64,000 bases of DNA. It comes from Anatilimnocola floriformis. Lineage in GTDB: Bacteria > Planctomycetota > Planctomycetia > Pirellulales > Pirellulaceae. A model generated the notes under the pieces. It worked only from the letters and a program-made list of their open reading frames with translations. It did no database searches and was not told the origin of the DNA. The stretch lies in contig NZ_JAMLFW010000001.1 in the NCBI RefSeq assembly GCF_024256385.1, positions 868,001 through 932,000 of the forward strand. Direction: 5' to 3'. Of this stretch, positions 37,061 to 42,766 are shown piece after piece (the stretch's first letter is position 1; every line of letters starts with the position of its first letter). The position numbers were made by a program, and so were the translations under genes.

Positions 37061-37101
37061 CGCACGTGCTGGAGACGCGAGCGCAGGCTCCGTTCAGCTA
37101 C
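37061..37101 (-). repeat. Single REP-like element supplying the mutS stop codon
   Basis: On the minus strand the element starts GTAGCTGAA (37101 down to 37093), the same 9 bases as the head of the repeat at 24993-25016. GGAG and CTCC pair farther in. The mutS stop codon TAG is the TAG of its GTAG head (37098-37100). No partner copy is visible. Confidence 0.5.
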
Positions 37102-39702
37102 CGCGGCTTGACCTTGCCCGGCGCAATTTCCGCCTGCCATTCGCTGAGCAGTTTAAGCGCTGCCATCGGCGAGAGCTCGTTGGTATCGAGCTGGCGGATC
37201 TTTTCGATCAGCGGGTGTTCTTCGGGCGCGAAAAGCGTCAGCTGCAAATCGCCTTTGCGTTTGGTTTTTGGTTTGACGAGCTTCGATTGACCGTTGCTGC
37301 CGACGTGATCTTGCTCGAGCTGCGCGAGAATCTGCTTGGCTCGTTCGTTCACACTCCGCGGCACACCGGCCAGGCGGGCGACGTGAATGCCGTAGCTCTT
37401 GTCGGCGGCGCCAGGAAGGATCTTGTGTAGGAAGATGACCTGCTCTTCCCATTCTTTCACGGCGACGTTGAGGTTCCGCACACCCGCCATCGTGCCGGCG
37501 AGGTCGGTCAGCTCGTGGTAGTGCGTGGCGAAGAATGTGCGACAACCGACCGTATCGTGCAGGTGTTCGACGATCGCCCAGGCCAGCGAAATGCCGTCGT
37601 ACGTGCTCGTGCCGCGACCGATTTCGTCGAGCACGACCAGACTGCGCGTTGTCGCCGTGTTCAAGATGCGGGCCGTCTCGGTCATCTCAACCATGAACGT
37701 GCTCTGCCCGCGCGATAGCTCATCACTGGCCCCGACCCGTGCGAAAACGCGATCGGCGATCCCAATCGTCGCCATCTTCGCGGGCACGAAGCTGCCGATC
37801 TGAGCCATCACTGTTAGGAGTGCGACCTGGCGAATGTACGTGCTCTTACCGGCCATGTTCGGGCCGGTGATGAGCAGCACAAAACCGTCGTCGCCACCGC
37901 AGTGAGCATCGTTGGGAACGAACGAGCCTTGCGTTTCGATCACATCGAGCACCGGATGCCGACCATCGACGATTCGCAGCTCCGGTTCATTCGTCATCGC
38001 CGGCCGACAGTAATTTCGCTGACAGGCGAGTTGTGCGAGCGAGGTGAGCACATCGAGTTGCGCGAGGGCTGCCGCTGTCGCTTGCAGCCGCCGCGTCATC
38101 GCCTGCACTGCATCGCGGAGCTTCAGAAAAATCTCGTACTCGAGTTCCTTGGCTTTGTCGTCGGCGCTCAGGACCTGCTCTTCGTATTCCTTCAGCTCGG
38201 GCGTGACGTAGCGTTCGCTATTGGTCGTCGTTTGTTTGCGATGATAATTGGGCGGCGTTTTGTCTTTGTGGCTGTTGGTGATCTCGATGTAGTAGCCGAA
38301 AACTTTGTTGAAGGCGACCTTGAGATTTGGAATGCCGGTGCGGGCCGCTTCGTCGGCCTGGTACTTGGCGATCCATTGCTTGCCGCCGGCGGCCAGGTCG
38401 CGGAGCTTGTCGAGATTGCTGTGATAACCACCGCGAATGATCCCGCCGTCGCGCGGTTGCAACGGGCAATCGTCGACAAGGGCCGATTCGAGCTGTGCAC
38501 GAATCTCAGGGCAGAGATCAATGGCTTGTTCGAGTTCACCGAGCAGCTTTGCCGTTCGCGCGGTTAGTTTTGCTTTCAGCTTCGGCAGCGCGGCGAGCGT
38601 TCTACCGACAAACGACAGGTCTCGCGGGCTGGCGCGACCCGTGGCGACACGCGCGAGCAATCGCTGCAAATCGTACACGCCGCGGAGTTGCTCTCGGAGT
38701 TCATCGCGCAGTGCGGAGTCTTTTGCCAGTTCCGCGACGGCATTGAGGCGGCCTTCGATTTGCTCGAGATCGGTGAGCGGACTCGCCAGCCAATCGGCGA
38801 GCAAACGGCCACCCATGGGCGTGCAGGTTTTATCGATCGCGGCGAGGAGTGAACCAGCGCGGGAACCAGTTCGCAGCGTGCGCGTCAGTTCCAAGCTGCG
38901 GCGAGTCGCTTCGTCGATCTCGAGCGACTGACCGCTGCGGTAAGGGAGCAGACGATCGATGTGCTGCAGATTGGTCTTCTGCGTTTCCTGGAGATAGTCG
39001 AGCACCGCGCCGGCCGCTCGCAGGGCAGGGGTGTCTTCGTCGGTGAACCCAAAGCCATCGAGGCTGAATGTTTGAAAATGCCGCGCGAGCGAATTCACGC
39101 CCGTGTCGTGTGCAAACGCCCAGGTTGGGCGCTTGGTCAGGATGCTTTTGGCCGGCAGATGCAACTTGAACTCCGCATCGTCGGCGAGCAGGCACTCGAC
39201 CGGACCAATCCGTGCGATCTCATCATTCAAGCGAGCCAGCGGCACCACGGCGGCGAAGAATCGGCCCGTCGACAGATCGCACCAGGCAACACCGGCCGCG
39301 TCACTATCACCCACGGGCAGCGCGATAATTGCTCTCCAGCGGATCGAGCAGCGCATCGTCGGTGAGCGTGCCCGAACTGACGACGCGAGTGATTTCGCGC
39401 TTGACGATTCCCTTGGCTTGCTTGGGATCCTCAACCTGTTCGCAGACCGCGGCTCGCAGGCCGGTGGCGATTAACTTGGCGAGATAACTCTCGAGCTGAT
39501 GGTACGGAAAGCCCGCCATCGGAATCGGGTTCTCGCCCTTGTCGCGACTGGTGAGCGTGAGCCCCAGAATCCGCGATGCCGTCTTCGCATCCTCGAAAAA
39601 CAGCTCGTAAAAATCTCCCATCCGAAACAACAACAGCGCATCGCCGCACGCCTGCTTGGCGTCGTGATATTGCTGCATCATGGGAGTGGGGGCGGCGGCC
39701 AT
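37098..39702 (-). pseudogene. mutS: DNA mismatch repair protein MutS, interrupted by a frameshift
   Basis: The gene spans two overlapping frames. The first (39307-39702, 131 residues) has the mismatch-binding start, with the Phe-x-Glu in MGDFYELF. It ends ESNYRAARG then TGA at 39307-39309. The second frame continues without a gap from about 39320 ([13 protein letters not shown]) to 37098. It holds Walker A (GPNMAGKST) near the middle of the ATPase domain, Walker B (VLDEIGRG) and the C-terminal dimerisation part. The joined protein would be about 865 residues, normal for MutS. One extra base in the CCC or GGG run (plus strand 39310-39317) restores the frame if removed. A sequencing error is possible; if real, mismatch repair is damaged. 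Confidence 0.9.
39307..39702 (-). CDS. mutS: N-terminal fragment of MutS
   Basis: 131 residues from ATG 39702. It contains the mismatch-recognition domain start and most of domain I but no ATPase. On its own it could bind neither DNA nor ATP in the normal way. It is listed separately because the frame is intact from a good start. Confidence 0.7.
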
Positions 39703-39804: not shown

Positions 39805-41793
39805 TTATTCGGTCACTTGATCGAGCACCGGCGTGTTGTTGGATCGTTGTTTGACCACGTAGTTCACAGCCTTCGTCACCGGCTTCGTAGGATCGCTATT
39901 GTCGGTGATCAACTGGCCATCGGCGGTGAACTCTTCTTTTTTGTCGCCGCGGGTTCGCGTCCAGCCGACGAGCTTGTCCCCTTCGTAGTGATATTCGTCT
40001 TTCCAGCTCTTCGGAATATCGAAGGCCGGATCGACGTAGTTTCCTTTCTCATTCGCGCCAGTGTAAGTCACGCTCTTGATGCGGCCCTGGTCATCGTATT
40101 CGCGGGCTTCGTTGTCGAGCGTGTTCACACAGAAGAACGCTGGCGGCGAATAGTGTTCGCCGTTGAAGGCAAACAAGCCGATATCAATGCGGTTCGATTC
40201 CATCTTCGAATCGGGCGCGATCGGCGCACGGGGTTGCCAGGTGAGGGTAATTTCGGCAGTCACGCCGGCCGGCGAAGGTTTGATTTCAATCTTGCTGGCG
40301 TCGCCGCGGAGAACCTTCCAGTGATAGGTGAGCGGCTTGCCGTTGAACTCCATTCCTTTTGCTGAGAGCGTGTAAGTTCGCTTTTGCTGCGTGCTCCGCC
40401 AGATGCGTGCGGCGACGAACGGCGTATCGAAGAGATTTTCGCGTTCGCCGCTGTCGAAGTAGTCTACGCCTAGCTTCGGCTTGTCTTCCTTGTCAACTTT
40501 GAGCAACGCGAGCGGCGGCAGCGACTTAGGGGTGAACGAATGGGCCAGTTCGATCATTCGCATGACGTCGAGATTCGCGCTGTCGAACACCGTAGGATGC
40601 GCCACGCCACTCAAGTAATCTTCGTCGGTCTTCACCGGTTTGTTCGAACGGCGAAAGACGTACTGCACAGCCGGCATGAGCATCTTTTTCTCGACAAGCT
40701 TGGCCTTCACCTCCGGATGAAACGCTGCGAGCGTGCAAGCAATGGCATCCATGAACGCCCGATCGCTGCCAGAGGAACCTTGACTGGTGATGACGTACGG
40801 CAGGTTGGCAGCGTAGACATCGCCATAACCGTCACCTTCGCCGTTGTGGCCGGGGTCGTGATCGCGATGCTCGGGATAGAAGTAGAGGTGATTGTTGACG
40901 TACTGCGCGAGTAGCGACTCGATGCCGCCAGGCCGTGTGTAGGCGATGCGCGGGTTGCTCCGCCAGCCTGGGCCAGCGGTTTGGGCCGTTGACGAATTAC
41001 CGATGACGCAGGTCATTCCTGAGGCGTGAAACAAGTTGGTTAGCTGCACGCCATAGCCAGTTTCCTTGCTCACGGATTCGTCGTATTCGATCCGTGTCAT
41101 TTGTAAGAAACTGCCGTAATCCATATTGGAATGGTCGCGGTCGCAGTTGTCGTAGATGTCACCCAAGTTTCCGGCTGCAGTGCCTTCGTCGATCCACTGA
41201 TTCAAAAGTTTGCCGACTTCACCGTGCGCCTTCACACGCAGATCGGCGGAGTTCCAAGCACTGATCACAGGACCACCGAGCAAGACACGCACCTGATTGA
41301 GCTGAGGATCGTAGATTGCACTCCCGCTTTTCACTTTCACAACGCCATCTACAAAGTCGCCTGGGCTGATTCTGAAATGCATTGGATTCGCAACGAGTTT
41401 ACTAGCCGTTTCTACGAGTTTGGCAAACTTCGGATCGTCACGCAGGCTTGCCAGGTCTTCGTCTTGCTGCATGTGCGCCACGTTGCCGAAGCCCGCCAGG
41501 ATCGCTTTCTCGAGATTTGCGAGGGCATCTTGCTTCTTTCCCTGCAACGCTTGAAAACAAGCGAGGTTGTAAGACGTCAACGGAAAGAACGGCGCGATCT
41601 GCTGGGCTCGCGCGGTGATTGCTTCCCCTTCGGCATATTTCTTCTGCTGGCCTGCCTGGGCTCCTGCGGCCATCAGGTTGCCGGCCGCGATCACTCGCTG
41701 TGGTTTTTGAAAGACGGAAATCTCGTCCACAGGTTCTTGCGCCAATACCTGACAGCAAAAAACGAAAGAAATAACAGCGGTAATGATCTTCAT
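39805..41793 (-). CDS. Large secreted protein with TPR-like N-terminus, unknown function
   Basis: Start at ATG 41793 (MKIITAVISF), with an AGAGAT site upstream; codons up to 42027 belong to the antisense of the amidohydrolase. 662 residues. A signal peptide (1-19, ending VLAQ) is followed by TPR-like helices at 30-115 and a long unknown middle part. Near residues 505-560 is a PKD-like beta-sandwich (TYHWKVLRGDASKIEI). The last 90 residues have YD/RHS-like repeats (YDDQGRIKSVTYTG, YHYEGDKLVGWTR). It is the last of a four-gene run and starts one base after the amidohydrolase stop. Confidence 0.7.
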   Translation of the reverse strand: MKIITAVISFVFCCQVLAQEPVDEISVFQKPQRVIAAGNLMAAGAQAGQQKKYAEGEAITARAQQIAPFFPLTSYNLACFQALQGKKQDALANLEKAILAGFGNVAHMQQDEDLASLRDDPKFAKLVETASKLVANPMHFRISPGDFVDGVVKVKSGSAIYDPQLNQVRVLLGGPVISAWNSADLRVKAHGEVGKLLNQWIDEGTAAGNLGDIYDNCDRDHSNMDYGSFLQMTRIEYDESVSKETGYGVQLTNLFHASGMTCVIGNSSTAQTAGPGWRSNPRIAYTRPGGIESLLAQYVNNHLYFYPEHRDHDPGHNGEGDGYGDVYAANLPYVITSQGSSGSDRAFMDAIACTLAAFHPEVKAKLVEKKMLMPAVQYVFRRSNKPVKTDEDYLSGVAHPTVFDSANLDVMRMIELAHSFTPKSLPPLALLKVDKEDKPKLGVDYFDSGERENLFDTPFVAARIWRSTQQKRTYTLSAKGMEFNGKPLTYHWKVLRGDASKIEIKPSPAGVTAEITLTWQPRAPIAPDSKMESNRIDIGLFAFNGEHYSPPAFFCVNTLDNEAREYDDQGRIKSVTYTGANEKGNYVDPAFDIPKSWKDEYHYEGDKLVGWTRTRGDKKEEFTADGQLITDNSDPTKPVTKAVNYVVKQRSNNTPVLDQVTE

Positions 41794-41794
41794 T

Positions 41795-42766
41795 TTATCT
41801 CTTGCGCCAAATTCCGTAGGCGGACTTGCAGTTTGTCGAAAAGAACCGTTCTTGATCTTTGGCCGGGCGATTCGCCAGGTATTGTCGCACAATATCCAGC
41901 ACGGTTTCGTAGGAAGCTGCTCGAGTGCTGACCGGCCAATTGCTACCGTACAACAGTCGGTCCGATCCCCAGATCGACCACAAGGCATCGAGAACTGGGC
42001 GATAAAAATCCACATTGCGCGGAGCATCGCCCTCGCGTTTGCCGGTCGACTCGACGAGCGCGGAGACCTTGCAGTAAACGTTGGGGTACTCCGCCGCGGC
42101 CTTCATCCCTTCCAGCCATTTCGCCGGTGGCGGGCCGCCGTCGATCTTCAGATTGCCGCAGTGGTTGATGCAAAAGCGAGGGCGATTCATCGGCCGCAGA
42201 GCTTTGTTCAGCGCGGCAACTTCGCCGGGCGTTTCGGGGCCGCCGTTGACCTCCACGATGCGATCGGCCTGATGAACCGCGAACATGTGATTCAAAAATT
42301 GGCCGTCGGAAATTCCTTCGACCACGGCCCCAGTATTGATCCGGAATCCGCAAAAGAGTTGGCTTTGACAGAAGCGTTTTAAGTCGTTCGCAAAACGATC
42401 CGTCCCAGGCTTCAGGTTGCCGATGACGCCGAGGATGCTTTTGTTTTCCTGGGCAAGATCAAGCAGCCACTGATTATCTTCGACCCACGGACTCGCTTCG
42501 ACGACGATGGTGCCCAGCACACCGAGCGGCTGCGTGAGCTTTTCAAACTCCGCCGGCAGCACGGGGCGATAGAGAACCTTGTCGTCCTTCCCCGGCCACG
42601 GCACTCCTTCTTTCCGCTCGGGATCGTAGAAGTGCGTATGCGTGTCGACGATCGAGAGGTCCTTTGCCGGATCTGCATGGACTTCATTAGCGAACGACAA
42701 AGCAGCCACGGCTGCTGTTGATTGCAGCAAGATGCGTCGCGAGAGAGGGCAGGGGAAAGGAGACAT
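41795..42766 (-). CDS. Amidohydrolase_2 family protein, exported
   Basis: 323 residues. A twin-arginine-like signal (SRRILLQSTAAVAAL) opens the protein. VDTHTHFYDPE near residue 40 is the metal-binding HxH strand. CINHCGN near 198 and LYGSNWPVS near 275 are later metal or substrate regions; the Asp usual in GSDWP is Asn here. The fold is the TIM barrel of fuconolactonase and rhamnonolactonase-like enzymes (COG3618), which open sugar lactones. Substrate unknown. The stop is one base from the next gene's start. Confidence 0.85.
   Translation of the reverse strand: MSPFPCPLSRRILLQSTAAVAALSFANEVHADPAKDLSIVDTHTHFYDPERKEGVPWPGKDDKVLYRPVLPAEFEKLTQPLGVLGTIVVEASPWVEDNQWLLDLAQENKSILGVIGNLKPGTDRFANDLKRFCQSQLFCGFRINTGAVVEGISDGQFLNHMFAVHQADRIVEVNGGPETPGEVAALNKALRPMNRPRFCINHCGNLKIDGGPPPAKWLEGMKAAAEYPNVYCKVSALVESTGKREGDAPRNVDFYRPVLDALWSIWGSDRLLYGSNWPVSTRAASYETVLDIVRQYLANRPAKDQERFFSTNCKSAYGIWRKR

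Follow-up and report, generated by a model that had tools for sequence, protein, structure and literature searches.

A mutS gene split between two reading frames in Anatilimnocola floriformis, a probable loss-of-function allele

We have analyzed a stretch of 64,000 nucleotides (G000:C1:868001-932000, called here the window) from the genome of the planctomycete Anatilimnocola floriformis, which has 8.93 Mb in 17 contigs. The window bears the mutS gene, which is read in two different frames. The features of the locus are collected in Table 1. Frame A corresponds to domain I of MutS, the mismatch-recognition domain, and contains the motifs GDFYELF and TPMMQQ. Frame B, which is +1 (or -2) relative to frame A, contains the motifs GPNMAGKST (Walker A) and DEIGRGTS. 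In the open reading frame listing, the longest open reading frame of frame B starts further upstream, at a TTG in position 39434. Pfam detects MutS_I in frame A (E 6.5e-44) and MutS_II, MutS_III, MutS_IV and MutS_V in frame B. All domains of the MutS1 family (TIGR01070), from I to V, are present and in order, over two frames. They do not form a single continuous frame: The match of the C part (128-839) is found in an open frame of 790 aa, and the N part lies in another frame.

Table 1. Features of the mutS locus and its surroundings. Positions are those of the window.
Feature	Position	Strand	Description
mutS frame A	39307-39702	-	ATG 39702 to TGA 39309-39307, 131 aa, ends ESNYRAARG
mutS frame B	37098-39314	-	MutS domains II-V; in-frame GTG 39314-39312
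Frame A stop and possible frame B restart	39307-39314	-	TGA 39309-39307, shortly after GTG 39314-39312
Likeliest deletion junction	39323-39324	-	Bases flanking the 11-base gap found against the sister gene; domain I/II linker
CCC and GGG runs	39310-39317	+	CCC 39310-39312 and GGG 39315-39317, sites proposed for a one-base change; less likely option
Gene upstream of mutS	39805-42027	-	740-aa protein; Pfam match to ABhydrolase-like_N, below cut-off

The genomes searched include one other member of the genus, which belongs to a different species (G001, the sister genome in what follows). It has one mutS gene, coding for 882 aa in an open frame of 885. Residues 2-128 of its MutS are 93.7% identical to frame A, and residues 127-866 are 87.4% identical to frame B. 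Among named records, the best matches of frame B are mostly found in Planctomycetaceae, Pirellulaceae and other planctomycetes. Since the two pieces match Pfam MutS_I and MutS_II to MutS_V, the split is far above chance. A previous reading of the sequence alone had proposed that mutS is split and that the same protein carries on in a second frame. The open reading frames, the alignment with the sister and the Pfam domains all confirm this, and the two-frame split of mutS is real in the recorded sequence. The break falls in the linker that joins domain I, which recognizes mismatches, to domain II, the connector; in Pfam terms, it separates MutS_I from MutS_II. In one study of E. coli MutS, the connector was modelled as residues 128-266 (PMC4521584).

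The frame A protein has been searched in 60 genomes, and matches were found in its own genome and in 56 of the 59 others; G036, G038 and G048 gave no match in this search. In the sister and in 53 other genomes, the open frame around the matched part spans no fewer than 858 aa. The two exceptions are G002 (668 aa), where a run of N breaks the gene, and G043 (295 aa), where the coordinates suggest that the match runs off the end of the contig. We have also matched the sister protein across the junction in 29 loci taken from the frame A search, the window's own locus being excluded. The junction is read in one frame in 28 of them, including that of the sister; the 29th is the locus of G002. This locus (L247, G002:C115:2000-8000, about 2814-2913) has been considered as a second split mutS and rejected, as its gap is the run of N. 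In a wider set of 149 family genomes, that of A. floriformis included, 147 have a match to the MutS1 protein family, and 138 of them are over its cut-off. The earlier reading had also considered that a sister genome might share the two-frame structure. Such a case has not been found, the sister gene being read in one frame. A gene which is interrupted in one genome and whose orthologues in close relatives are intact, as found here, is what is expected of a loss-of-function allele.

The split mutS is the only MutS-type gene that we have found in this genome. MutS_V has a single match genome-wide, and the N part of MutS also has a single match. No MutS2 over the cut-off and no NucS have been found in the genome, which leaves neither these nor a second MutS as a substitute. 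MutL is intact, with an open frame of 704 aa.

Two observations concern repair genes at other loci. In G038 (3.3 Mb, 99% complete) there is no match to the N part of MutS or to MutS2, and MutL is open (622 aa); this genome may truly have lost mutS while retaining mutL. Elsewhere in the A. floriformis genome, an open frame of 2,412 aa (G000:C2:1628899-1634904) contains two UvrA units in tandem. Among the matches listed, 30 of 32 other genomes also have a long open frame (1,980 to 2,474 aa) that matches UvrA.

The RNA around the break folds in an ordinary way (z -0.74, an equal or better fold being reached by 41 of 200 shuffled sequences), and it has no match in Rfam. We have seen no classical slippery site at the break by eye, in agreement with the previous statement that no strong slippery heptamer is present, and no strong Shine-Dalgarno in the 20 bases upstream of the GTG. 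These results bear on the suggestion that the cell makes MutS despite the split, through a programmed frameshift or in the form of two polypeptides, the second from a coupled restart at the GTG of frame B. Such a restart could yield a protein with domains II-V, as the GTG lies just before the TGA; it would be a protein without mismatch recognition. The position of the break between two Pfam domains and the conservation of both halves are also consistent with this suggestion. Nevertheless, we find it very unlikely. The structure is not conserved: The long open frames and the single-frame junctions of the relatives argue against it, as do the RNA fold, the blank Rfam search and the lack of a slippery site with either stimulatory RNA or an internal Shine-Dalgarno. 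We have rejected programmed frameshifting for these reasons, and the ribosomal slippage offered as an option in the earlier reading is unsupported. We give still less credit to a working two-piece MutS, in which domain I and domains II-V would be separate, translationally coupled and still able to assemble. If true, mismatch recognition would be physically detached from the ATPase clamp.

The frame change is equivalent to one extra base, or to a loss of 2 modulo 3. The best DNA alignment to the sister gene contains an 11-base gap, located after the Asn-Tyr codons and one more base. As a proxy for a one-base change, we have used an alignment in which Asn-Tyr and the three codons that follow stay in register, and compared it with the free alignment. 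The free alignment, with its 11-base gap, is better in five of six scoring schemes, with margins from 1.0 to 8.5, and ties in one; the margins are small in two of the six. The 11 bases past the gap present 2 differences from the sister, both in third codon positions of frame B. We have tried six relatives, three of which could be aligned: The sister (L003) and L126 give the 11-base gap, while the more distant L136 gives one extra base. The residue which follows Asn-Tyr is Arg in frame A. It is L, I, C or F in all 129 distinct sequences from relatives, which come from the 140 loci with a match among 145 searched, other phyla included. At the fourth codon past Asn-Tyr, 28 of these 129 sequences have GTC and 20 have ATC.

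The sequence-only reading described a single-base frameshift in the CCC or the GGG run. Both runs were correctly placed, but the single-base change has not been confirmed, as the gap in the best alignment to the sister lies a few bases upstream of them. A real loss of function through one base inserted in either run would leave the consequence unchanged. Frame A retains Ala-Ala where most relatives carry Leu-Ala-Ala, which is in agreement with an insertion, as are the preference of the L136 alignment and the tie in one scoring scheme. On the other hand, an insertion requires a change from a hydrophobic residue to Arg at the position described above, together with a separate shortening of the linker, and the alignment with the sister mostly favours the gap. 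We consider the one-base insertion rather improbable, an estimate which overlaps with that for the explanation we prefer, where a one-base form is admitted as a less likely variant.

The retained Ala-Ala has led us to reject a plain removal of the conserved Leu-Ala-Ala. Together with the L136 alignment, it lowers the certainty of a deletion. The length of the product is uninformative on the size of the lesion, since the length of the domain I/II linker is variable among relatives. In our judgement, which is not a computed value, an 11-base deletion is several times as likely as a one-base change. As a guess, short direct repeats may have flanked the deletion. A literature search for short direct repeats in mutS and hypermutators has given no results.

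We have looked for decay in the two halves of the gene by counting private changes, those of this species being compared with those of the sister, as summarized in Table 2. The excess in MutS has a p of 0.04 when taken alone. At sites conserved in at least 90% of 30 relatives, MutS has 4 private changes in this species and none in the sister, which could reflect a slight relaxation; for MutL the figures are 1 and 0. Since MutL leans the same way as MutS, there is no clear decay specific to mutS. Homopolymer runs of at least 7 bases are found 81 times per Mb in this genome and 65 times per Mb in the sister, which is not a telling difference; no sign of a long-standing loss of repair appears in these runs when both genomes are compared. 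The lesion looks recent, because neither half of mutS is clearly decayed. It may have arisen in nature or in culture.

Table 2. Private changes and tip lengths in MutS and MutL.
Protein	Outgroup sequences	Private changes, this species	Private changes, sister	Tip length, this species	Tip length, sister
MutS	30	24	11		
MutS, N part		2	1	0.109	0.100
MutS, C part		22	10	0.104	0.072
MutL	29	12	7	0.210	0.112

In order to ascertain whether frameshifts are frequent in this assembly, we have surveyed 1.18 Mb of this genome (of its 8.93 Mb) and 1.2 Mb of the sister. From 854 predicted sister genes, 394 have some match, and 162 of them match with at least 60% identity over at least 100 aa (68,687 aa). 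The mutS gene is the sole confirmed frameshift among these 162 genes, in a survey which is insensitive to shifts near gene ends. A single interior stop was also recorded in this genome, and it belongs to a shadow frame, the gene underneath being intact. In the reverse direction, 155 of 901 predicted genes qualified, and the sister gave one frameshift and four stops, the latter from two query frames. The frameshift seems to be a 5' extension next to a frame of 557 aa which is itself intact; the stops seem, less certainly, to come from shadow frames. Looser passes gave further cases, which the strict criteria removed. One of them, in which shadow frames were still included, gave 48 and 60 cases. 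A second loose pass gave 7 stops and 2 frameshifts in this genome; its other cases, 2 frameshifts among them, are from the sister. Besides mutS, the frameshift in this genome arises where the 5' end overlaps the gene before it, and the gene itself is intact (445 aa); the second one in the sister is found at a 5' end, beside an intact frame of 323 aa. The stops of a loose pass are mostly located near the ends of the alignments.

The compared stretch is not rich in frameshifts, so we have rejected an error-ridden assembly. A routine sequencing error at mutS is also less likely, because mutS is the one confirmed case among the genes compared. An assembly or sequencing error would mean that mutS is intact in the living strain and that the record is off by a few bases. 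This would agree with the conservation of mutS, whose two halves both look functional, and a one-base change in a short run would be a common type of error. The loss of 11 bases, on the other hand, is unusual in base calling. We consider an error unlikely, although it is the alternative to which we give the most weight, and the recorded DNA is probably correct at mutS.

In summary, the sole mutS gene of this strain has probably been inactivated in recent times by a lesion that is real and short, with an 11-base deletion as its likeliest form, and the strain is probably a mutator. The lesion would lie where the mismatch-recognition domain meets the connector domain. Ribosomes would stop at the TGA of frame A and only domain I would be produced. 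Domains II-V would be made at a low level at best, through restart. Having found no other MutS, we expect the strain to lack mismatch recognition and to behave as a mutator. What we infer from these comparisons is how large the deletion is, that it is recent, and that the strain has a mutator phenotype. Three options had been put forward in the earlier reading: The mutator allele fits best, a sequencing error is less likely and slippage lacks support. Provided that the record is correct, the strain probably owes a mutator state to defective mismatch repair, and this is relevant to any genetics done with the culture and to the dating of the lineage. We would then have a planctomycete with a mutator allele. 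Our literature search has found no mutS mutator in planctomycetes among the matches listed. The general phenomenon of mutS mutators is well known, and this is only a new instance.

Several known systems may be compared with this locus. The intact MutS1 of the sister has the same five Pfam domains in the same order, with the Walker motifs; in A. floriformis, the change of frame severs domain I from domains II-V. MutS2 and Msh4/Msh5 are MutS homologues which lack domain I, and the frame B half alone would also be without the mismatch-recognition domain. The difference is that we have here a broken MutS1, in a genome with no MutS2 over the cut-off. A classic way for an isolate to become a mutator is to lose mutS. 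Among the mutators known from nature and from culture collections, the ancestral Escherich strain is in a mutator state, probably acquired during storage, according to its description (PMC5793043). The likeness lies in an isolate with a mutator state; in our case the isolate is a planctomycete and the mutator state is predicted from its sequence. When a mobile element is excised in Vibrio splendidus 12B01, mutS is reported to lose 2 bp at HTPMMQQ, which results in a hypermutator (PMC5296598). In both cases a short deletion, which in A. floriformis is the likeliest lesion, shifts the frame of mutS and leads to an early stop. Nevertheless, a scar of the Vibrio type has been rejected: The TPMMQQ motif is present in A. 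floriformis, and the break is found about 110 residues further on.
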